Shown here: piece by piece, positions 45,896 to 60,994 of the stretch
How positions within the stretch are numbered: position 1 is the first letter of the stretch
Layout of the letters: each line of letters starts with the position of its first letter
Source of the DNA: Geitlerinema sp. PCC 7407
GTDB taxonomy: Bacteria > Cyanobacteriota > Cyanobacteriia > PCC-7407
Direction of reading: 5' to 3'
Assembly (NCBI RefSeq): GCF_000317045.1
Contig: NC_019703.1
Span: forward strand, 3,728,934-3,792,933
Length of the DNA: 64,000 nucleotides
The notes under the pieces: model-generated
Told to the model about the DNA's origin: nothing
The model's input: only the letters and a program-made list of their open reading frames with translations
The model's database searches: none
Translations under genes and position numbers: made by a program

Positions 45896-46882
45896 CTAGG
45901 AGGCGATCGCCGGCATCGCCAGCCCCTTCGAGGCCAGCCACTCCGCGTTAAACAGCCGCGACTGATAGCGCGCGCCGCCGTCACACAGCACCGTCACAAT
46001 CCGGTGTCCCGGCCCCATCTGCTTGGCCAGCGCCACCGCCGCCGCCACGTTGATCCCCACCGAGCCCCCCATAAACAGGCCGTCCTTGTGCAGGAGCTGA
46101 TAGATCACCCGCAGGGCTTCCGTATCGTCGATTTGGATCGCATCGTCCGTCGGCACGCCTTCCATATTGGCCGTCACCCGGCTATTGCCGATGCCCTCCG
46201 TCACCGAGCTGCCTTCGAGGTGGATTTCCCCGGTTTTGATATAGCTGTAGAGACCGCTCCCCAGGGGATCAGCCACCACGCACTTCACGTTAGGATTTTT
46301 CTCTTTCAGAAAGAGTGCGACGCCAGCGTAGGTGCCGCCGGTCCCCGTCGCTGCCACCCAGGCGTCTACTTGGCCGTCGGTCTGCGCCCAGATTTCGGGG
46401 CCTGTGGTCTCGTAGTGGGCCAGGCGGTTAGCAAGGTTGTCAAACTGGTTGGCCCAAATGGCGTTGTCCATCTCCGCCGCTAGGCGTCCCGACAGCTTCA
46501 CGTAGTTGTTGGGATCGCGGTAGGGCACGGCAGGCACGGTCCGGACTTCAGCGCCCAAGGTGCGCAGCAGGTCGATTTTTTCCTGGGACTGCGTTTCAGG
46601 AATGATGATCAGGCACTTGTAGCCTTTGGCGTTGCAGATGTGGGCGAGGCCAATTCCGGTATTGCCAGCAGTGCCTTCGACTACGGTGCCGCCGGGCTTG
46701 AGTTCGCCGCGCTTTTCGGCATCTTCGATGATGTACAGCGCTGCCCGATCTTTCACCGAGCCGCCGGGATTGAGGAATTCTGCTTTCCCTAGGATTTCGC
46801 AGCCGGTTTCTTCGCTGACGCTATCCAAGCGAATCAGGGGCGTGTTGCCAACTGCTCCGACAAAGCCGTCTTTGATGTCCAT
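45896..46882 (-). CDS. cysK: Cysteine synthase (O-acetylserine sulfhydrylase)
   Basis: 328 residues of PLP fold type II. The lysine is K44 in NPGGSVKDRAALY. The phosphate-binding loop is GTAGNTGIGLAH-like, and GTGGTYAG is a second PLP loop. It makes cysteine from O-acetylserine and sulfide. A paralogue with a different substrate cannot be excluded. Confidence 0.9.
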   Translation of the reverse strand: MDIKDGFVGAVGNTPLIRLDSVSEETGCEILGKAEFLNPGGSVKDRAALYIIEDAEKRGELKPGGTVVEGTAGNTGIGLAHICNAKGYKCLIIIPETQSQEKIDLLRTLGAEVRTVPAVPYRDPNNYVKLSGRLAAEMDNAIWANQFDNLANRLAHYETTGPEIWAQTDGQVDAWVAATGTGGTYAGVALFLKEKNPNVKCVVADPLGSGLYSYIKTGEIHLEGSSVTEGIGNSRVTANMEGVPTDDAIQIDDTEALRVIYQLLHKDGLFMGGSVGINVAAAVALAKQMGPGHRIVTVLCDGGARYQSRLFNAEWLASKGLAMPAIAS

Positions 46883-47955: not shown

Positions 47956-49128
47956 TCACGATTTGGGTTTCTGCTTCCTAGCACCTGCCTTCCGGGACTT
48001 GCTCCCCTCCGGTCTTACGGTCGCTCCACAGACTGACACGGTGTGTCCCACCGCCAAGATGTTCTTTGCCGCGTTCACATCCCGATCATGGTGACTGCCA
48101 CACTTCGGACAATCCCACTCTCGAATGCTCAGCGGCAATCGCTCTACGACATGGCCGCAGTTCCCACAGCGCTTAGAGCTGGGAAACCAGCGATCGATCT
48201 TCACCAACTCTCGCCCATACCACAGGGCCTTATAGTCCAGTTGGCGAATCAGCTCACCCCAGCCCGCATCGCTAATGACACGGGAAAGCTTGGGGTTCTT
48301 GACCATGTTCTTCACTGCCAGCGTCTCGACCGCGATCGTTTGATTTTCACGAATCAGTCGAGTCGTCAGCTTGTGAAGATGGTCTTTCCGAGAATTAGAA
48401 ATCTGTTGGTGAATCCGCGCTACCTTGAGTCGAGCTTTGTCTCGATTACGAGAGCCCTTTTGCTTGCGGCTCAGAGCCTTTTGGGCTCTGCGAAGTCGTC
48501 GGTAATGCCGGTCAAAGTGCTTGGGATTGGCGACCTTTTCCCCGTCACTCAGGGCGACCAAGCTGGTAATCCCAGCGTCCACCCCAATCGACTGGTTAGA
48601 AGCCTCCAGTGTGAGATTCCGAGGATCGTCAAAGCGGAGGCTGATGTACCACTGACCAGACGGGTTCAGTCGTACAGTCACCGTGGAGGGCTCAGCCCCC
48701 TCGGGAATCCGCCTGGACCATCGAATGTTCAATGGTTCTGGGCTTTTAGCCAGAAACACCTGACCCTGTTTCCATTTGAAAGCAGACTTTGTGAACTCTG
48801 CACTGCCACCATTGCGCTTCTTCTTGAAGTTCGGATAGTTTGTCCGACCGGTAAAGAAGTTAGTGAAAGCCGTTTGCAGATGTCTCAGTCCCTGCTGAAG
48901 AGGAACGCTGCTTACTTCATTGAGAAACTGGAGGTCTTCTTGCTTTTTCCACTCCGTCAGCTTCGAAGAGGTCTCGGCATAGCCGATTCTCTCTTGTCGC
49001 TCATACCAAGCTTCAGTCCGTTCTGCCAGGGCTCGGTTGTAGACCAGCCGAACACAGCCCAGTGTCCGACGCAAGAGATTCTCTTGCTCGAAGGTGGGAT
49101 AGAACCGGTAGCTGAAGGCTTTTTCCAT
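47956..49128 (-). CDS. tnpB: RNA-guided endonuclease TnpB, IS1341 type, copy 1
   Basis: 390 residues, intact. RuvC-like Asp in VDAGITSLVAL, Glu in VETLAVKNMV and Asp in HHDRDVNAAKNIL; the zinc ribbon is CGNCGHVV then CPKCGS. The N-terminus MEKAFSYRFYPTFEQE is typical. It is about 95% or more identical to the copy near 51 kb and only distantly related to the tnpB near 1 kb. The guide RNA should arise from its 3' end and the right-end hairpin. Confidence 0.92.
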   Translation of the reverse strand: MEKAFSYRFYPTFEQENLLRRTLGCVRLVYNRALAERTEAWYERQERIGYAETSSKLTEWKKQEDLQFLNEVSSVPLQQGLRHLQTAFTNFFTGRTNYPNFKKKRNGGSAEFTKSAFKWKQGQVFLAKSPEPLNIRWSRRIPEGAEPSTVTVRLNPSGQWYISLRFDDPRNLTLEASNQSIGVDAGITSLVALSDGEKVANPKHFDRHYRRLRRAQKALSRKQKGSRNRDKARLKVARIHQQISNSRKDHLHKLTTRLIRENQTIAVETLAVKNMVKNPKLSRVISDAGWGELIRQLDYKALWYGRELVKIDRWFPSSKRCGNCGHVVERLPLSIREWDCPKCGSHHDRDVNAAKNILAVGHTVSVCGATVRPEGSKSRKAGARKQKPKS

Positions 49129-50449: not shown

Positions 50450-51622
50450 TCACAGTTTGGGTTTCTGCTTCCTAGCACCTGCCTTCCGGGACTTGCTCCC
50501 CTCCGGTCTTACGGTCGCTCCACAGACTGACACGGTGTGTCCCACCGCCAAGATGTTTTTTGCCGCGTTCACATCCCGATCATGGTGACCGCCACACTTT
50601 GGACAATCCCACTCTCGAATGCTCAGCGGCAATCGCTCTACGACATGGCCGCAGTTCCCACAGCGCTTAGAGCTAGGGAACCAGCGATCGATTTTCACCA
50701 ACGCTCGCCCATACCACAGGGCCTTATAGTCCAGTTGGCGAATCAGCTCACCCCAGCCCGCATCACTGATGACACGGGAAAGCTTGGGGTTCTTGACCAT
50801 ATTTTTTACCGCCAGCGTCTCGACCGCGATCGTTTGATTTTCACGAATCAGTCGAGTCGTCAGCTTGTGAAGATGGTCTTTTCGGGAATTGAAAATCTGC
50901 TGGTGAATCCGCGCGACCTTGAGTCGAGCTTTGTCTCGATTACAAGAGCCCTTTTGCTTGCGGCTCAGAGCCTTTTGGGCTCTGCGAAGTCGCTGATAGT
51001 GCCGGTCAAAGTGCTTGGGATTGGCGACCTTTTCCCCGTCACTCAGGGCGACCAAGCTGGTAATCCCAGCGTCCACCCCAATCGACTGGTTAGAAGGTTC
51101 CAGCTTCAAGTCTCGAGAATCATCAAAGCGGAGGCTGATGTACCACTGACCAGACGGGTTCAACCGCACAGTCACCGTCGAGGGCTCAGCCCCTTCTGGA
51201 AGCCGCCTGGACCATCGAATGTTCAATGGCTCAGCAGACTTTGCCAAGAACACATTGCCGTTCTTCCACTTGAAAGCAGACTTCGTAAACTCTGCACTGC
51301 CACCATTGCGCTTCTTCTTGAATTTCGGATAGTTTGTCCGACCGGCAAAAAAGTTCGTGAAGGCCGTTTGCAGATGTCTCAGTCCCTGCTGAAGAGGAAC
51401 GCTGCTTACTTCATTGAGAAACTGGAGGTCTTCTTATTTTTTCCACTCCGTCAGCTTCGAAGAGGTCTCGGCATAGCCGATTCTCTCTTGTCGCTCGTAC
51501 CAGGCTTCAGTCCGTTCTGCCAGGGCTCGGTTGTAGACCAGCCGAACACAGCCCAGTGTCCGACGCAAGAGATTTTCTTGCTCGAAGGTGGGATAGAACC
51601 GGTAGCTGAAGGCTTTTTCCAT
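50450..51622 (-). pseudogene. tnpB: tnpB copy 2, interrupted by a nonsense codon
   Basis: The reading frame is the same length as copy 1 (1173 bp), but codon 63 is TAA (tta at 51434-51436), where copy 1 has CAA (Gln). The 62 codons before it are identical in protein sequence to copy 1; after it the frame continues in phase to the end. A GTG at 51253 could restart a 267-residue C-terminal fragment that keeps the RuvC residues. Otherwise it differs by scattered substitutions. Confidence 0.9.
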
Positions 51623-51756: not shown

Positions 51757-52422
51757 ATTTTTTCGATCGACAATCTGCTGACTCCTGAGGAAGTGCAGGC
51801 GCTCACCCACCGCCTGAGCGACGGCAAATTTATCGATGGCAAGCGCACTGCCGGCTGGCACGCTCAGCTCGTCAAAAACAATACTCAGCTCGATCGCGAA
51901 AGCGAAACCTACAAAGCCTTGGTAGAAGAGGTGCGCGAGGCGTTTCAGAGCAATTTCTTATTTCAAATTGCCGTCCAGCCCAAGAGGATTCATTCGCTGC
52001 TGTTTAGTCGCTATGAGGCGGGCATGTCCTACGGCAGCCATACCGACAATGCCCTGATGGGCACGCCCGCCCAACGCAGCGACGTTTCTATGACGCTCTT
52101 TTTGAGTCCGCCGGAGAGCTACGAAGGGGGGGAGCTAGTGATCGAGGAGATGGGGGGCGATCGCCCTTTCAAGCTGCCCGCCGGATCGGCCATTGTGTAT
52201 CCGTCGTCTACCATGCACCGCGTCGAGCCAGTCACCAGCGGCATTCGTCTAGCCGCTGTGGGGTGGACCCAGAGCCTGGTGCGCGACCCGGCCCAGCGCG
52301 AGATCCTGTTTGAGCTGGACACGGTGCGCCGGGCCGTCTTTGAGCGTCAGGGCAAAACCGTCGAATTTGACTTGCTCACCAAGAGCCACACCAATCTGCT
52401 GCGGATGTGGGCCGAGCCCTAG
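51754..52422 (+). CDS. piuC: PKHD-type Fe(II)/2-oxoglutarate dioxygenase
   Basis: 222 residues. Iron ligands H96 and D98 (YGSHTDNALM) and H155 (SSTMHRVEP), with R165 binding 2-oxoglutarate (SGIRLAAVGW). This is the PiuC/YbiX family, often iron-regulated; substrate unknown. The start lies right at the end of the adjacent IS copy, whose GGAGG acts as its SD. The stop overlaps the convergent SDR gene by 4 bp. Confidence 0.9.
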   Translation: MIFSIDNLLTPEEVQALTHRLSDGKFIDGKRTAGWHAQLVKNNTQLDRESETYKALVEEVREAFQSNFLFQIAVQPKRIHSLLFSRYEAGMSYGSHTDNALMGTPAQRSDVSMTLFLSPPESYEGGELVIEEMGGDRPFKLPAGSAIVYPSSTMHRVEPVTSGIRLAAVGWTQSLVRDPAQREILFELDTVRRAVFERQGKTVEFDLLTKSHTNLLRMWAEP

Positions 52423-53396
52423 GCCTTGACACTGGCTACGTGGTGGTGCATGGCCTCTCGCAAGACCTCCTCGATGGGCCGCGGCTGCCAGCCCAGTTCG
52501 CGGCGCGCTTTGTCGGCCCGGACCCGCACGCAGCGATCGTAGACGTAGTGCACTCGCTCGCGGCTGAGGGGCGGCTGCCACGAGAGCAAGCGCCCCACCG
52601 GATCGAGGACATTGCCCACAAAGCGCACCAGGGCCTCGGGCGCTTCCTTGGGGGCCGGGATGCCGGTTTCTCGGCTCAAGAGGGCAAACATCTCCCGGGT
52701 GGTCAGCTCCCCTGCCGAGATGATGTAGTGAGCGCCTGAGGGGGCCTTTTCGTAGGCCAAGAGCATCGCTTCGACTAGGTCGTCTACGTGGACGATGCCA
52801 GTGACGCGATCGCCCCCGGCCCACAGCTTGAGTCCCCCCTTGGCAAACTGGCGCATTACCGGCCCGAAGTGCGGATCATCTGGCCCAAAAATGCCCGAAG
52901 GCATGACGCTCACCGTCGAGAGGCCCTTTTGGCCAAACTCGTCTACGAGGCGCTGGGCTTCGTACTTGGTGCGATCGTAGGCGGACGAAAACCCTTGCTG
53001 GGTCCGCTGGTAGGTTTCATCGATGACCTGACCCTGGGTATCGCCGTAGACGCCGATGGTGCTGCAATAGACGAACCGCTGCACCCCCGCCGATTGGGCT
53101 GCTTCTAGAACGGCCCGCGTTCCTTCGACATTGACCTGAGCCATCTTGGCGGCATCCACAATGCCAAGCTCGACGTAGGCAGCCAGATGAAAGACCGCTT
53201 CGACCCCCTGCATGGCTGCGCCGAGGGCTGAGCGATCGCCAATTTCACCGTAGGCAAACTCCACGGGCAGATCTGTTAGCCGATCTAGGGAACTCGACTT
53301 GCGAACGTAGGCCACGACTTGATGGCCGCGCTGAAGCAAAGCTGTGACCAGGTGAGACCCCGTAAAGCCGCTCGCGCCGGTAACCAGTGCTTTCAT
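52419..53396 (-). CDS. Extended SDR (NAD-dependent epimerase/dehydratase), possible ceramide-pathway reductase
   Basis: About 325 residues from ATG 53396. Nucleotide motif TGASGFTGSHL, catalytic pair in AYDRTKYEAQRL, and GIVHVDDLVEAML are extended-SDR features. It resembles dihydroflavonol-4-reductase/HpnA-like enzymes. It follows the GNAT-like and alpha-oxoamine synthase genes by tight spacing, the set in which Caulobacter CerR (also an extended SDR) reduces the 3-keto group of the ceramide precursor. The palindrome ACAAACGTTTGT (53399-53410) lies just before the start. CerR identity is an inference. Confidence 0.7.
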   Translation of the reverse strand: MKALVTGASGFTGSHLVTALLQRGHQVVAYVRKSSSLDRLTDLPVEFAYGEIGDRSALGAAMQGVEAVFHLAAYVELGIVDAAKMAQVNVEGTRAVLEAAQSAGVQRFVYCSTIGVYGDTQGQVIDETYQRTQQGFSSAYDRTKYEAQRLVDEFGQKGLSTVSVMPSGIFGPDDPHFGPVMRQFAKGGLKLWAGGDRVTGIVHVDDLVEAMLLAYEKAPSGAHYIISAGELTTREMFALLSRETGIPAPKEAPEALVRFVGNVLDPVGRLLSWQPPLSRERVHYVYDRCVRVRADKARRELGWQPRPIEEVLREAMHHHVASVKA

Positions 53397-53433
53397 AAAC
53401 AAACGTTTGTGTTTTTAACCCGTTGCGATCGCC

Positions 53434-54582
53434 CTAAAGCGCTTTTTCATAAATGCGATAGGTCTTGTAGCGCTGGCCGCCCGAAGCCTCCACCAGTCGC
53501 CGAGACGGAAAATTGTCTTCGTAAATCCAGGACATTTCGGCCTGCTTGTAGGCCTTGCCCGGCTTTTGGGCCCCTTTCATGGTCAGGTGCATCAGCCCCA
53601 GGGGCACCAGCTTGCGACGGTGCTCCGGCAGAGCGCAGATGGTCAGCACGCGGCCCTGATTGATTTTGCGGCGGAACCACAAAAACTTGAGGAGGCCGAT
53701 CCAGTCGAGCTTACCGTTGACGCGCTTGAGCGGGATGTTGTAGTCGGGCAGCCCCATGACGAAACCAATCATTTCGCCCTCAAGCTCCGCGATGTGGAAG
53801 ACGTCGGGGTCCACCAGGCTCTGGAGCGATCGCGCCTCTTCGAGAAATTCTTCCTCGGTGCGGGGCGTCGAGCTCCAGTTATTCGAGAAGGCCTTGGTAA
53901 AGAGCTGATACAGGGCGCGGCAGTCCGCCTCAAAGGCGTCTCCCTTCAGGCTTAGGGGCCGGAACTTGACCCCCGACTTGCAGGCGATCCGATAGCCCTT
54001 CTCGAACTCCGGCGACAGGGTGCCTTCCAAGGAGAGCAAATAGGCGTAGGCGTCTTTGGCTTTTTCCCAGCCGTCGCGATCCATAAACGCAGGATAGTAG
54101 GCCGGGTTGTAGGGCATCATCACCATGGGCGGCGAGTCAAAGCCCTCGACTAAGAATAGACAGTTATTGTGCGTCGACAGATCAATGGGTCCACGGATAC
54201 GGGTCATTCCCTGGTCCCGGAGCCACTGACCGGCGGCATTTAGCAGCTCCTGGGCAATCTCAAAGTCATCAATACACTCGAAAAAGCCAAAGAGGCCGAG
54301 GGGGAGGCCTTCGCGTTCAATGAGACGGTCATTGACGGCGGCCACCACTCGGCCTACGGCTTGGGGTTTGCCCTGGTAAGGGGCGATCGCTACAAACTGC
54401 TGCAGCCGACCATAGGAGAAGAAGGGATTGCTCGGCTCAAACTGCTTGGCAACTGAGCTGCGCAAGGGCGGGACCCAGTGCGGATCGTTTGCATAAACGC
54501 GGTCTGGAACCTCCAGGAAAAGCGCTTGGTCTTGGGGCGTTGTGACGGCCCGAATCTCACACTTCGCTGTTGTTTGCACCAC
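53434..54582 (-). CDS. GNAT-like acyltransferase, possible bacterial ceramide synthase
   Basis: 382 residues with a GTG start. It resembles a long GNAT-like family: an N-terminal part with NDPHWVPPLR, YGRLQQFVAIA and GRVVAAVNDRLIEREG; a middle with IRGPIDLSTHNNCLFLVEGF and YNPAYYPAFM; and a C-terminal half with ICALPEHRRKLVPLGLMH, which resembles the acyl-CoA loop. It lies 66 bp after the alpha-oxoamine synthase and 37 bp before the SDR. The bacterial ceramide synthase (bCerS) of Caulobacter is described as a GNAT-fold N-acyltransferase encoded with spt and cerR; whether this is an orthologue needs a search. Confidence 0.65.
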   Translation of the reverse strand: MVQTTAKCEIRAVTTPQDQALFLEVPDRVYANDPHWVPPLRSSVAKQFEPSNPFFSYGRLQQFVAIAPYQGKPQAVGRVVAAVNDRLIEREGLPLGLFGFFECIDDFEIAQELLNAAGQWLRDQGMTRIRGPIDLSTHNNCLFLVEGFDSPPMVMMPYNPAYYPAFMDRDGWEKAKDAYAYLLSLEGTLSPEFEKGYRIACKSGVKFRPLSLKGDAFEADCRALYQLFTKAFSNNWSSTPRTEEEFLEEARSLQSLVDPDVFHIAELEGEMIGFVMGLPDYNIPLKRVNGKLDWIGLLKFLWFRRKINQGRVLTICALPEHRRKLVPLGLMHLTMKGAQKPGKAYKQAEMSWIYEDNFPSRRLVEASGGQRYKTYRIYEKAL

Positions 54583-54648
54583 GACATTTCAGCTCTCTAA
54601 TATCTCAGCTCGATCAAAGCTCCGTCCCCTTGAGGGCAGCCAGCAACC

Positions 54649-55929
54649 CTAGGCGCTGATCGTCGGCTTGTACATGCGATCGCGCGTTGCCGTCATCGCC
54701 GTCACCAAGCGATCCATCTCCTCCTTGGTGTGGAGCGAGTTCACCGTCACCCGCATCCGGGGCTTGGCAATGAACCAAATCGGGGACACCCAGATGCCGT
54801 ACTCATCCAAGAGGCGGCGCGCAAACAGCTTGGGGTTAATGTCTGCTGGCAAGATCACCGGCAGCACGTTGGTTTCGCCCCAGACGTCAAAGCCCTGCTC
54901 GGTGAGGCGCGATCGCAAGTAGCGCGTGTTCTCTTGCAGCTGGGTCACCAGCTCCGGATGCTGGCGGACTTGGCGAATGCTCTCCAGGGCAGCCGCCGTG
55001 GTTGGCGGTGGCAGGGAGATCGTGCCGATCGAGCTAGGCGAGACGTTCAGCAGGGGCTTCAGCTCGGCCACGTGGGTGCTGATCGCGGCTCCCGCTGAGG
55101 CAGCAAACTTCGAGAAGGTCGTCATGATCAGCGGCATCACGCCCCGATCGATGGCGTCTTGGGGCAGCAAGTTGAAGTGCTCATAAATACCACGCCCCGT
55201 CGCTCCGATGGCGCCGCTGGCGTGGGCTTCATCCATCACCAGCGTGCTGCCTTCGTAGTGGCTCATGATCTCCAGCATGTCGGGCAGGGGCGCCACGTCG
55301 CCGTCCATGGAAAAGACCGCGTCGGAGATCACCATGATGCGATCGTCTGGCTGGGCATAGCGGCGCAGCTTGCGGGCCATGTCTTCCATATCACAGTGGC
55401 GGTAGGCGCGAACCCGTACTCGCGGGCTGTGGCCAAATAGCTTGCCCGATCGCGTCCCGGCATTGGCGATCGCCGACACGATGCAGCCATGGTTTAGCAC
55501 ATCCGACAGAATCAGCGTCTCGCGCGTGTTTTGGAAACCAGGCACCGGGATCGCCAGATGGCAAAAGGCATCCATCAGAGCCTGAAACGCCATCCACGCA
55601 TTGAGAAATAGCTGGGTATGGGGCAAATGCTTGAACGCAGAAATCTCATCTTCGAGCTGGCGATGGAGATCGATCCGCCCGCTCAGCACCGAACAGGAAC
55701 TATTCGAGGTTCCATACTGCCAGATCGAATCCACCGCAGCCTGACGGACAGCGTCGTTCTGCACCAGACCCAGGACATCATTGGTGCAAAACGTCAGCAC
55801 CTTGCGCCGCTCACCCGAGGGAGGCAGTTCAATGTCAACCAAATTGCCGTTGCGTCCGTGGCAGATATATTCGTCGGGATCCAGACCGCTCTCATACCAG
55901 CGCTGGACATACTCTTTTACAACTTGCAC
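54649..55929 (-). CDS. Alpha-oxoamine synthase family PLP enzyme (serine palmitoyltransferase-like)
   Basis: 426 residues, GTG start with GAGGGGAG upstream. PLP features: SDVLNHGCIVSAI, SDAVFSMDGDVAPLPDM, MDEAHASGAIGATGRG (Asp233), and the Schiff-base Lys274 in TTFSKFAASAG. The family condenses an acyl-CoA or acyl-ACP with an amino acid (BioF, KBL, HemA, Spt, CqsA). The Lys motif (TFSK, not TLGK) and NDVLGLV differ from BioF. No biotin genes adjoin. The acyltransferase and SDR downstream favour a long-chain-base product such as keto-sphinganine; a sulfonolipid or signal molecule is possible. Confidence 0.8.
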   Translation of the reverse strand: MQVVKEYVQRWYESGLDPDEYICHGRNGNLVDIELPPSGERRKVLTFCTNDVLGLVQNDAVRQAAVDSIWQYGTSNSSCSVLSGRIDLHRQLEDEISAFKHLPHTQLFLNAWMAFQALMDAFCHLAIPVPGFQNTRETLILSDVLNHGCIVSAIANAGTRSGKLFGHSPRVRVRAYRHCDMEDMARKLRRYAQPDDRIMVISDAVFSMDGDVAPLPDMLEIMSHYEGSTLVMDEAHASGAIGATGRGIYEHFNLLPQDAIDRGVMPLIMTTFSKFAASAGAAISTHVAELKPLLNVSPSSIGTISLPPPTTAAALESIRQVRQHPELVTQLQENTRYLRSRLTEQGFDVWGETNVLPVILPADINPKLFARRLLDEYGIWVSPIWFIAKPRMRVTVNSLHTKEEMDRLVTAMTATRDRMYKPTISA

Positions 55930-56118: not shown

Positions 56119-57216
56119 CTAGGAGACCGACACTTCAGCGTCCTTGTTCCGAGCGGGCGATCGATCGCTCTCGGGGGCGATCGCCTGCTCCGACTGCCGC
56201 AAAATCAGCCGCTGCACCGCAATAATCGCCGGGTTAATCTCCACATAGCGCCGCTGAGGCTCCTTGAGGTAAGTCTGCTGCTCACTTTCCATCATTTCGA
56301 TGTCCTGGCGCAGAAACTTCATAAAGACATAGTTTTCTAGGATGTGCTGCAAAGCGGGCCGGGCCGAGTTGATCAGCCACTGGGGCAGCCGCACCTTCAA
56401 GAAGAAGTAGGCAAAGGAGCGGCTCTCAGTGGGGCTAACCGGCAGGCGCATTAAGTATAGAGAGGAAACGTTTTCGAGGTTGCTGAAGTAGTGGGGATAG
56501 CGGTACTGGACTGAGATGATTTTGGTGGTGGTGTCTTTGGCCTGGTCGGTGAGGCCGAGGAATTTGGCGAGCTTGCCTCTGTAGGAGACTTGGTAGTCGG
56601 CGATGACAGAGCCGTCGGTTTCCCGGAGCTTCACGAGCTGGGGATCAAACCAGCCCTGGAGGTTTTCGTGCAGGAAGCCATGGAAGACGTCCATGGAGTT
56701 TTCGTTGCAGATGGAGAAGTGAGCCTTGAAGTGGCCGGTGACAGGCACCATGAGGTAGCCGGGCTGATCAAATTCGGCGATGTGGGGGACGGGGGTGGTC
56801 TCCGCAAGGGCGGGATCGCCGGGAAAGATCCACAAAAGGTTGTAGCGATCGCAAATCGGGTAGCTGCGGGCCTTGGCGCAGGGGAGTTTTTGGCTGGGGG
56901 GCAGGTAGGGAATTTTGGCGCATTCGCCCTGGCTGTCAAATTCCCAGCCGTGGTAGCGGCAGGCGAGGTTTTGGCCAAGGACAAGGCCCTTGTGCAGGGC
57001 GACGCCCTTGTGGGGGCAGGCGTCTTCGAGGGCGTGGACGTTGCCCTCGGTGTCCCGATAAACGGCGATCGCCTGCTGCCAGACGGTGACAGCGATGACC
57101 TGCCCTGGCTTGAGGCGATCGGACCAGGAGACGGCGTACCAGTGGTTGGGATTGATGCCGGCGTCTCGGACCGAGTTGCGGACTTGCTGGCTCTTTAAGG
57201 TAGTTGCGAGTTCCAT
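56119..57216 (-). CDS. Rieske non-haem iron oxygenase
   Basis: About 365 residues from ATG 57216 with AGGGGGA six bases upstream. Rieske [2Fe-2S] ligands: C67/H69 (CPHKG) and C86/H89 (CRYHGW). The mononuclear iron motif is NENSMDVFHGFLH with D176, H179 and H183. The family includes ring hydroxylases, PAO-like and desaturase-like oxygenases. It lies 190 bp upstream of the alpha-oxoamine synthase on the same strand and may act on the same product, for instance as a hydroxylase. Substrate is not shown. Confidence 0.85.
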   Translation of the reverse strand: MELATTLKSQQVRNSVRDAGINPNHWYAVSWSDRLKPGQVIAVTVWQQAIAVYRDTEGNVHALEDACPHKGVALHKGLVLGQNLACRYHGWEFDSQGECAKIPYLPPSQKLPCAKARSYPICDRYNLLWIFPGDPALAETTPVPHIAEFDQPGYLMVPVTGHFKAHFSICNENSMDVFHGFLHENLQGWFDPQLVKLRETDGSVIADYQVSYRGKLAKFLGLTDQAKDTTTKIISVQYRYPHYFSNLENVSSLYLMRLPVSPTESRSFAYFFLKVRLPQWLINSARPALQHILENYVFMKFLRQDIEMMESEQQTYLKEPQRRYVEINPAIIAVQRLILRQSEQAIAPESDRSPARNKDAEVSVS

Positions 57217-57515: not shown

Positions 57516-58679
57516 ATGGGGAAAACCATTCAGCTAAGCGTGCTGCTGGCGGCGGGCGCGATGACGACGATGGCAGGCGGAGTCGTAGCGCCGGTCCTGC
57601 CAGACATTATTCGGCAACTTCAGATCGAACCGACGCTGGCCGGCAATTTGGTCAGCGCTCACTGTCTGACGATCGCGCTGTTTAGCCCCCTGCTGGGGGT
57701 GGTGGCCGATCGGGTGGGACCGCTGCGGGTTCTGGTGCCGTCTTTGGTGGCCTATGGCCTGGTGGGAGTGGCCGGAGCCGGTATGGAGAGCTTTTGGCCG
57801 CTGCTGGCGACGCGGGCACTGCTGGGAGCGGCGGCGGGGGGCATCGCGGCAGCCAGCCTGGGCATGCTGGGCAATCTCTATGAGGGAACGGAGCGATCCC
57901 AGGCTCTGGGCTATGCCACCAGCACGCTGACGGTGGCGGGGATCGCCTTTCCGCTGCTGGGGGGGCTGCTGGGTTCCTTGGGCTGGCGGTATGCGTTTTA
58001 TCTGTATGGGGTGGCGATCCCGCTGGCGCTGGTGGCGGTGAGTGTGCTGCGCAATGGGCAGTCGGCGCGATCGCCCAAGACTCCAGCGACTCCCAAAGGA
58101 ATGGGTGCTACCTTGAGCGATCCGCCGGTGCTCCAGATCCTGATCGCCCTGGCGCTGGCATCGGTGTCTATGTACGCAGTAGTCATCTATGCGCCCCTCT
58201 ATCTAGAAGCGATGATCGGCGCAGGGCCTGAGATTAACGGGATTGTGCTGGCGGCCCGGGCGATTGGTGCTGCGGTGGTTTCAGCGCTGGCCGCCCGACG
58301 CCTAGCCCAGAAGATCGGGACATCGAAGGCGATCGCTTTGGGCTTCGGCCTGATGGCCCTGACCCTGGTTACGATTCCCTTTTTGAGCACGCTAGCGGGG
58401 ATTTTGCCCGCGGCGATCGCCTTTGGCGGCGGTTTTGGTCTGGTTTTACCCAATCTGTACAGTATTTTGGCTGATTTATCCCCGCCAGATCAGCGCTCCA
58501 CGGTTTTAGCCGCGGGCACCGGCACGAGCTTCTTGGGGCAATTTTTGTCACCGATTTTGCTCGGGCCGACGCTGGCCTTGGGAGGTCTTGAGGGCGTCTT
58601 TTATGGCGCAGGGGCGATCGCGGCGATCGCAGGTATCAGCTGCCAGCTCTTGATCCGCCCGGTGCCTAAGCCGCGCTAG
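57516..58679 (+). CDS. MFS efflux transporter
   Basis: 387 residues with about 12 membrane helices. MTTMAGGVVAPVLPDIIRQL, VVADRVGPLRVL and the A-rich helix near LLGAAAGGIAAASLG fit the arabinose-efflux/drug-H+ antiporter group of MFS. Divergent from the Rieske gene, 299 bp away. It could export a product of the neighbouring cluster, but drug efflux is equally possible. Confidence 0.85.
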   Translation: MGKTIQLSVLLAAGAMTTMAGGVVAPVLPDIIRQLQIEPTLAGNLVSAHCLTIALFSPLLGVVADRVGPLRVLVPSLVAYGLVGVAGAGMESFWPLLATRALLGAAAGGIAAASLGMLGNLYEGTERSQALGYATSTLTVAGIAFPLLGGLLGSLGWRYAFYLYGVAIPLALVAVSVLRNGQSARSPKTPATPKGMGATLSDPPVLQILIALALASVSMYAVVIYAPLYLEAMIGAGPEINGIVLAARAIGAAVVSALAARRLAQKIGTSKAIALGFGLMALTLVTIPFLSTLAGILPAAIAFGGGFGLVLPNLYSILADLSPPDQRSTVLAAGTGTSFLGQFLSPILLGPTLALGGLEGVFYGAGAIAAIAGISCQLLIRPVPKPR

Positions 58680-58898: not shown

Positions 58899-60587
58899 CT
58901 AGCCGCCGTCTCCGGGCAAGCGCACCTCTTGCAGCACCGTCAGGCCCGCCAAGAACTGCCGGTCCTCGCTCAGGTGCGGGAACTTGAGCTGCGAGTCTGG
59001 AATGCCGCGATCGAGCTGGCGGCGGCGTAAAATCCCAAAGCTACCCGGCGCCAAGATCCGCAAACGGGGTGGCGGCACGAAGTTACTGGGACGCTTGAGG
59101 GCGTAGGACTTGTTTTCCGCCTGCAAGAGGCGATCGCACCGGTCCAAAAAGCCCTGGGGATCCGCCAGACTTTCCCCCGCCGCCAGCTCCACATTGATCA
59201 AATAGTGCGCCGGAATCACATCCTCCGAGAGCGTAATGCAGAAATCTTCCAGCACCACCCCAAACTCTTGCTGCAGCGTCTGCATTACCCGCGTAATGTG
59301 GTACTCCGTCGTTTTCTCCGTCGTCGAAGAAATCATGCCGCCCCGGCGATAGCGGAACACGATCAGCGGCGTCTTTTCATAGAAGCCCACCACCTCCACC
59401 ACGTCCCCAATGTCGTAGCGGTAGAAGCCGCTGTAGGCCGTCGTCAGCAAGCGGTAATAGCCTCCCACCTGCACCTCTGTCGGCAGCAGCGTCTTGGGAT
59501 GGGCCTCCTCCCACTGGTCCGGCGCAATAAATTCAAAAAAGCCGCTCTCCAGGGCCAAGACGCTGCCGTCGGTATCCACATCGGGGTACACGCTAAAGGT
59601 CGCCTCCGCCGACGAGTACACCGCCCCAAACACCGGCGTATCGCCAAAGTAGGCCAGGAAGCGCTCAAAGTAAAAGTCCGACGTCCCGCCCCGCGCCGTC
59701 CCAACAAAGGCTAGCTGCGGCCACGCAGCCACCGGCGTCAGCCGACCATCGCGCTGGATCGCCACTCGCAGCTCCTGGGCCCGGACCGGGTCTGGTACGC
59801 AGCGCTTTTCGAGTTGCTGGCGCAGCTCGGGCGACAGATCCAGCCAGCTCGCCAGTTCGCCTTTTTCGATGTCGCGAATCAGCTGGTCCGCATACTCTTC
59901 GAGGTAGCCGCAGGTCCGCAGGACCAGCATGGGGAAGTTGGCCAGCAGACCGCGCATCTGGCGATCGCGCAGCGCAAAGAGCAGGCACACGTAGTGGCGC
60001 GTCACGCTGTCCCCCGGCAGCAGCGTCTCAAAGGGATGGGCAAACAGCTGGCTGTAGAGCAGCTTGCCCATGCGCAGCACCCCCACGCTGGCGTGGCCGT
60101 AGTCGATGCCCGTCGGCGTCTGGCCGAGGAGCTGCACCGAGTTGGTGGTCAGCACCCGGCCAAAGGATCGCCCCCGCGCCGCCAAGCCGTCCGCCAAGAA
60201 ACCAATTGACGCCAGATTTGCCCGCTTGAGGGAGTTCTGAAAGCGCTTGGTCACGGGAATTAGTTTTTGCACCCCCGTCGAGCCGCTCGTCAGGTTGAAG
60301 TAGGCGATCGGGTCTGCGGTCAGGACATTAGGTTCACCGTTGAAGGCCCGCTCTGTATAGGCCTGGTAGGTGCTGTAGGGCCAGATGGGAACCTGCTCGC
60401 GAAACTGATCAATGGTTTTGATGTCGCTGAGACCAAACTTTCGCCCGAGCTCGGTCGTTTGCTGAACGCGCAGCAGCTCCATCAAAAAGCGCTCTTGGGC
60501 AGCTTCGGGCTGGCGGGTTTGGGCGACGAGGCGATTTTTGGCGCGGCGCGCAATGGCCAAAACAAAGGGGGAGAGGAAACGGTTCAT
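58899..60587 (-). CDS. GH3-family acyl-adenylating enzyme
   Basis: About 562 residues from ATG 60587. GH3 family features: the ATP motif FNLTSGSTGVQKLIPVT, YSSAEATFSV and YRYDIGDVVEVVGFY. Plant GH3 proteins adenylate carboxylic acids and conjugate them to amino acids; bacterial members make amides of unknown products. It is separated from the Rieske gene by the MFS gene on the other strand, so membership of the cluster is tentative. Confidence 0.85.
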   Translation of the reverse strand: MNRFLSPFVLAIARRAKNRLVAQTRQPEAAQERFLMELLRVQQTTELGRKFGLSDIKTIDQFREQVPIWPYSTYQAYTERAFNGEPNVLTADPIAYFNLTSGSTGVQKLIPVTKRFQNSLKRANLASIGFLADGLAARGRSFGRVLTTNSVQLLGQTPTGIDYGHASVGVLRMGKLLYSQLFAHPFETLLPGDSVTRHYVCLLFALRDRQMRGLLANFPMLVLRTCGYLEEYADQLIRDIEKGELASWLDLSPELRQQLEKRCVPDPVRAQELRVAIQRDGRLTPVAAWPQLAFVGTARGGTSDFYFERFLAYFGDTPVFGAVYSSAEATFSVYPDVDTDGSVLALESGFFEFIAPDQWEEAHPKTLLPTEVQVGGYYRLLTTAYSGFYRYDIGDVVEVVGFYEKTPLIVFRYRRGGMISSTTEKTTEYHITRVMQTLQQEFGVVLEDFCITLSEDVIPAHYLINVELAAGESLADPQGFLDRCDRLLQAENKSYALKRPSNFVPPPRLRILAPGSFGILRRRQLDRGIPDSQLKFPHLSEDRQFLAGLTVLQEVRLPGDGG

Positions 60588-60994
60588 AAGGTGTTTTGTC
60601 AAGACGAAATAGGGGCGATCGCTTCAGTCAAAGCGCGATCGCCCGTTCAAGCAATCTGCAACCTTTTTACCCCAGCGGTGAGGGTTCGAGAAGTTCGGTG
60701 CAGACCAACCCAAGGGCCAAGATTCTGCTCGGTTTTGGGGACGTTCTATCGAAAATTGACGCCAACCATGAAGAACCTCACAAACTTGGTTCGTGATTTC
60801 ACCGATTTCTGCGCGAAGCCCTCCTAGGGGCCAGAAATAAAAGTTGCGTGGATATTCTGAAGAAATTCCGGCTTGTCTCGATGAAACTATAGACAAATCT
60901 GAAGAATGCGCTTGAATAAAGCCAAACAACTAGGGGGCAACTAAGTTCGTTTGGTCTTCTGGTCAAATAAAGCATCCTTTCAGATGAGTGGACT
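60588..60994 (+). ncRNA. Possible plus-strand non-coding transcript
   Basis: No protein gene is supported on the plus strand here, yet two good plus-strand terminators follow. TTGTCT and AGACAA form a short inverted repeat near 60872-60898. A short RNA ending at the first terminator would explain the structure. No known cyanobacterial sRNA was recognised, and the start is unknown; the terminators could instead belong to transcription from further upstream or be part of the hhoA terminator region. Confidence 0.3.

Follow-up and report, generated by a model that had tools for sequence, protein, structure and literature searches.

A candidate ceramide-type gene set with oxygenase partners in scattered cyanobacteria

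Do cyanobacteria possess genes for sphingolipid-type synthesis, and does a locus of Geitlerinema sp. PCC 7407 hold them? Sphingolipids have been reported from two cyanobacteria only, Scytonema julianum and field-collected Moorea producens, without genes (PMC8895605, PMC6272925). Sphingolipidomics of Nostoc punctiforme found that none were made; the single alpha-oxoamine synthase (AOS) described there is BioF-like, and cyanobacterial BioF forms one clade in that study (PMC8895605). The AOS clade described here differs from that BioF clade. In the window, which is the whole stretch of 64,000 nucleotides that was analyzed, a first-pass annotation had singled out an AOS, a long GNAT, and an extended SDR as a three-gene operon resembling the Caulobacter-type ceramide pathway (Spt, bCerS, and CerR). 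On sequence grounds, we consider it fairly probable that this locus specifies a route to ceramide-type (sphingolipid-like) lipids in which the synthase is divergent and oxygenases tailor the product, and that this route is present in scattered cyanobacteria. The AOS–GNAT–SDR family supplies specific, testable candidate genes for sphingolipid-type synthesis in named cyanobacterial genera.

Organization of the locus

The coordinates and Pfam matches agree with the earlier description of an AOS, a long GNAT, and an extended SDR on one strand, with gaps of 66 and 37 bp between the genes. On the minus strand, the PLP-type AOS (54649..55929; 426 aa, GTG start; Pfam Aminotran_1_2, 1.2e-31) is followed by a tandem-GNAT N-acyltransferase of the bCerS/YghO family (53434..54582; 382 aa; Acetyltransf_1, 5.3e-6) and an extended SDR on the HpnA-like side of its family (52419..53396; ATG start; Epimerase, 3.4e-44), for which the list of open reading frames offers a second start, TTG at 53402. 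A Rieske non-haem iron oxygenase gene (56119..57216) lies on the same strand 189 bp upstream of the AOS gene, and the order of transcription is Rieske, AOS, GNAT, and SDR. Among 80 distinct AOS loci with sufficient downstream DNA, GNAT came next after AOS in 42 and was followed by SDR in 21, the GNAT stop and the SDR start usually overlapping by one base. The locus of Baaleninema simplex PCC 7105 contains AOS and GNAT. Because of the spacing here and this overlap in many relatives, the genes are presumably cotranscribed. A scan of the locus for promoters and terminators found sites no more numerous than in shuffled sequence.

The commonest neighbor of AOS is the Rieske gene, located directly upstream in 66 of the 87 distinct AOS loci with sufficient upstream DNA. 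The three genes hold together as the unit that had been proposed, and the proposed operon was incomplete. A divergently oriented MFS transporter gene (57516..58679, plus strand), whose product may be an accessory protein or exporter, is found near AOS in 51 loci. The next gene (58899..60602, minus strand) encodes a GH3-family acyl-adenylate amide synthase that is distantly OlsH-like; it is near AOS in 24 loci, and its membership in the set is uncertain.

Distribution and co-occurrence in cyanobacteria

AOS orthologues were found in 27 of 386 cyanobacterial genomes spread over 14 families, with identities of 71 to 83% when the window itself is set aside, and no other match fell below 1e-60. The carrier genera include Leptolyngbya, Phormidesmis, Symploca, Coleofasciculus, Calothrix, and Rhizonema, among others, and two families (f7 and f23) contain both carriers and non-carriers. 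All 27 AOS carriers also possess orthologues of GNAT (57–75% identity) and SDR (60–73%), as does one further genome, G294, the sole non-carrier in which GNAT reaches this level. The SDR orthologue was absent from all 21 non-carriers, in which the best SDR match, where there was any, was an HpnA-like paralogue (33–35%). The Fisher test for AOS and GNAT gave p = 1e-40, a value inflated by shared ancestry. In G011, the three genes are at 0.49, 1.27, and 1.50 Mb, yet all are present, and in six other genomes (G030, G042, G114, G133, G183, and G284), AOS and GNAT are distant from each other or on separate contigs; linkage therefore does not explain the co-occurrence. Since every one of the 27 genomes with AOS has close orthologues of all three genes, the grouping is not a matter of chance, and AOS, GNAT, and SDR are one functional unit. 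In G294 (L090 and L244), GNAT, SDR, and Rieske orthologues are present and an AOS orthologue was not found, reflecting either a real loss of AOS or an assembly gap.

Lipid-type hydroxylases co-occur with this unit, adding to the three genes noted earlier the Rieske gene upstream of AOS and an FA_hydroxylase gene that usually accompanies an Mpo1-like gene. Rieske orthologues are present in 17 of the 27 carriers and in G294, and other genomes have at most paralogues of 32 to 41% identity. FA_hydroxylase (PF04116) has an orthologue in 25 of the 27 carriers, against 2 of 21 non-carriers (49–55% identity); for the Mpo1-like protein (PF06127), the counts were 18 of the 27 carriers and 0 of 22 other panel genomes. 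FA_hydroxylase is mostly unlinked to AOS and usually stands beside the Mpo1-like gene: the two are close together in 17 of the 18 genomes having the latter, and on separate contigs in G129. In the host itself, FA_hydroxylase, Mpo1-like, and amidohydrolase genes lie in a row 17 kb to the right of the window (L241, 3836–6415). In some genomes, the pair joins the AOS locus, as in G306, where AOS, Rieske, FA_hydroxylase, and Mpo1-like genes fall within approximately 6.5 kb. The only PDB matches of FA_hydroxylase were to yeast Scs7, a ceramide hydroxylase, and were weak (E 0.09).

A gene for an OlsC-like acyl 2-hydroxylase (L153, 347–1084, and relatives) was seen near 14 AOS loci, with 281 bits to the OlsC model (cut-off, 450). 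It was rejected as a fixed partner on account of its patchy distribution.

Relationships of the three enzymes

By its sequence, the GNAT is a member of the bCerS (YghO/aca) family. It shares 29 to 35% identity over the full length with YghO and with the Sphingomonas and operon GNATs, and in a tree with four distant GNATs as the outside set, the cyanobacterial clade and these proteins occupied a 16-row branch with 100/100 support, which also contains two GNATs of other context (from Rhizobium WL3 and G276). The gene for its relative YghO in E. coli, on a sequence annotated as a plasmid, adjoins genes for SPT, ACP, SDR, and acyl-AMP ligase, acpR and epi being among its neighbors, and the relative in Sphingomonas adjoins an SPT that is nearly identical to PDB 2jg2. 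In laboratory strains of E. coli K-12, yghO is probably a pseudogene. The predicted structure (pLDDT 79) best matched tandem GNATs (TM approximately 0.56–0.59). A family-f7 cyanobacterium has a more distant bCerS-like GNAT (L100, 6915–8042; 32%), whose neighbors are genes for a DevBC-like exporter and a thioester-reductase-like ORF; this may be another lipid locus.

The AOS is 25 to 31% identical to SPT, KBL, and BioF. In the tree, the cyanobacterial proteins formed a single clade on a very long branch (2.1–2.7 changes per site), separate from SPT, BioF, KBL, and PKS-linked AOS; the tree joins it to KBL with weak support (65/76). An AU test did not reject grouping with SPT (p = 0.33), nor with BioF or PKS-linked AOS. 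Among NCBIfam models, bioF scored best with 230 bits (cut-off, 426), and the KBL models gave 168 to 192 bits (cut-offs, 460–493); the best match to a solved SPT had 138 bits (E 3.6e-39). BioF was rejected as the identity of this AOS, given this score and the BioF-group AOS found elsewhere in the carriers checked: all 14 hold another AOS, which clusters with BioF from cyanobacteria or E. coli. Because of this separate enzyme, the AOS of the locus is the likeliest AOS partner and substrate source of the GNAT. The cyanobacterial BioF of the Npun_R3567 type, which belongs to the same enzyme family and phylum, is a separate clade that coexists with the present one in the carriers checked, as had been suggested from motif differences. 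In a few carriers, G002, G011, and G183 among them, there is a third AOS, which is of PKS or KBL type, and AOS domains within long PKS-like ORFs of several cyanobacteria (L221–L224; approximately 1,090–2,760 aa) form a further clade. The AlphaFold model of AOS, which is of low confidence (pLDDT 65), was set aside for typing; its fold matches span all AOS types.

The AOS retains H147, D233, H236, K274, and R393, so that the catalytic Lys, the Asp/His pair, the stacking His, and the carboxylate Arg required in SPT are all present. It shares the AOS fold, these residues, and TFSK at the lysine with the Sphingomonas and Sphingobacterium SPTs, from which it differs in its low identity (25–29%), in two inserts of 11 to 12 residues near residues 127 to 137 and 159 to 171, and at the acyl site, where the PATP loop is missing, four residues being gone and PIWFIAKP standing instead. 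The first-pass annotation had taken TFSK as a departure; this was mistaken, as GTFSK is the usual motif of SPT from Sphingomonas, E. coli, and Sphingobacterium. Its other motif, NDVLGL where other AOS have N-x-Y-L-G-L, does set the family apart, the tyrosine being gone. The AOS is a candidate 3-keto long-chain-base synthase with an SPT-like role. The SDR, a candidate keto-reductase in the CerR role, groups with HpnA-like SDRs (95/90), and its union with the CerR set was not rejected at 0.05 by the AU test (p = 0.09), long branches meeting there.

The pathway of Caulobacter and E. coli BL21 (spt, yghO/aca, which is bCerS, epi/cerR, acpR, and aasR) has the same three enzyme types, and its GNAT belongs to the same family as the cyanobacterial GNAT, with 30% identity over the full length. 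The SPT systems of both organisms were tested experimentally, and aca/yghO was named there (PMC9386255). By contrast, the cyanobacterial AOS stands outside the SPT clade in the tree, the SDR leans toward HpnA-like proteins rather than CerR, and the partners are Rieske and FA_hydroxylase/Mpo1 genes; no dedicated acpR or aasR was found among the commoner neighbors of the AOS loci. Rubrobacter radiotolerans and Streptomyces NBC_01001 show the same AOS–GNAT–SDR order with GNATs approximately 34% identical to the cyanobacterial one, whereas their AOS falls among the SPTs (97/97) and E. coli CerR is the relative with which their SDRs cluster. The proposed Spt/bCerS/CerR set was borne out for the three enzyme types as a unit and for bCerS, whereas membership of the AOS in the SPT clade and of the SDR with CerR was neither shown nor rejected. 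The phylogenetic check suggested with it separated the AOS from BioF and the GNAT from the four distant GNATs, and left the AOS with the weak KBL join.

Proposed pathway and alternatives

We infer the substrates, the product, and the order of the steps as follows. With its carboxylate arginine kept, the AOS would join an alpha-amino acid, most likely serine and possibly alanine or glycine, to a long-chain acyl thioester, giving a 3-keto long-chain base. In cyanobacteria, acyl-ACP is generally regarded as the working acyl thioester, which makes it the probable acyl donor here. The bCerS-type GNAT would N-acylate the AOS product, and the SDR would reduce the 3-keto group, either before or after N-acylation; the order proposed for Caulobacter puts N-acylation first (PMC11087976). 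In most carriers, the Rieske protein and the FA_hydroxylase with its Mpo1-like partner may then hydroxylate or trim the chains. If this is true, a Rieske oxygenase is paired with sphingolipid-type synthesis.

Several observations count against a ceramide-type product: the long branch of the AOS, on which it could not be placed with SPT, its two inserts, its missing PATP loop and NxYLGL tyrosine, the weak AOS model that does not tell AOS types apart, the HpnA-like leaning of the SDR, G294 without AOS, the lack of sphingolipids in Nostoc punctiforme (although its one described AOS is BioF-like), and the absence of acpR and aasR from the commoner neighbors. An AOS pocket unlike that of SPT would also suit another substrate, and we think it unlikely, though worth weighing, that the enzyme uses cysteate, glycine, or alanine and yields, instead of a true ceramide, a sulfonolipid, a 1-deoxy-ceramide, or a different N-acyl aminolipid. 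Environmental bacteria are known to contain 1-deoxy and sulfono-1-deoxy ceramides (PMC11334938), and a cysteine-synthase-like gene (window 45896–46882, minus strand) lies 9 kb from AOS; this gene is, however, absent from the frequent neighbors across 103 AOS loci, and cysteate acyltransferase 28eh matched the AOS with 106 bits, less than the 138 bits of SPT. More improbable is a non-membrane-lipid role, in which the GNAT and SDR modify a signal or small amino-ketone produced by a CqsA- or KBL-like AOS. The weak grouping with KBL and the divergent MFS transporter near many loci would fit it, but the GNAT is of the bCerS family, the co-occurring genes are of fatty-acid-hydroxylase type and Mpo1-like, and the CqsA-type model gave only 91 bits, its cut-off being 428. 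That the AOS is a diverged BioF or glycine C-acetyltransferase with coincidental neighbors is very improbable and already contradicted: bioF is the top NCBIfam model, yet its score is far under the cut-off, the carriers checked have a second AOS of the BioF group, and the co-occurrence of the three genes is perfect.

Within the ceramide-type pathway that we favor, we propose tentatively, at somewhat below even probability, that the cyanobacterial first-step synthase evolved separately, not from SPT, and came to act with a bCerS-family GNAT and with Rieske, FA_hydroxylase, and Mpo1-like tailoring. If so, a sphingolipid-like class has been missed by surveys keyed on SPT. A Black Sea survey, with 38 phyla, accepted only proteins strongly similar to known SPT (E ≤ 1e-70; PMC11334938); the AOS would probably miss this threshold, its best solved-SPT match being 3.6e-39 in a different search.

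Elsewhere in the window, two near-identical TnpB/OrfB-like ORFs of 390 and 267 aa (47956–49128 and 50450–51253, minus strand) lie approximately 1.3 kb apart, which suggests that an insertion element was duplicated and that one of its copies is shorter.
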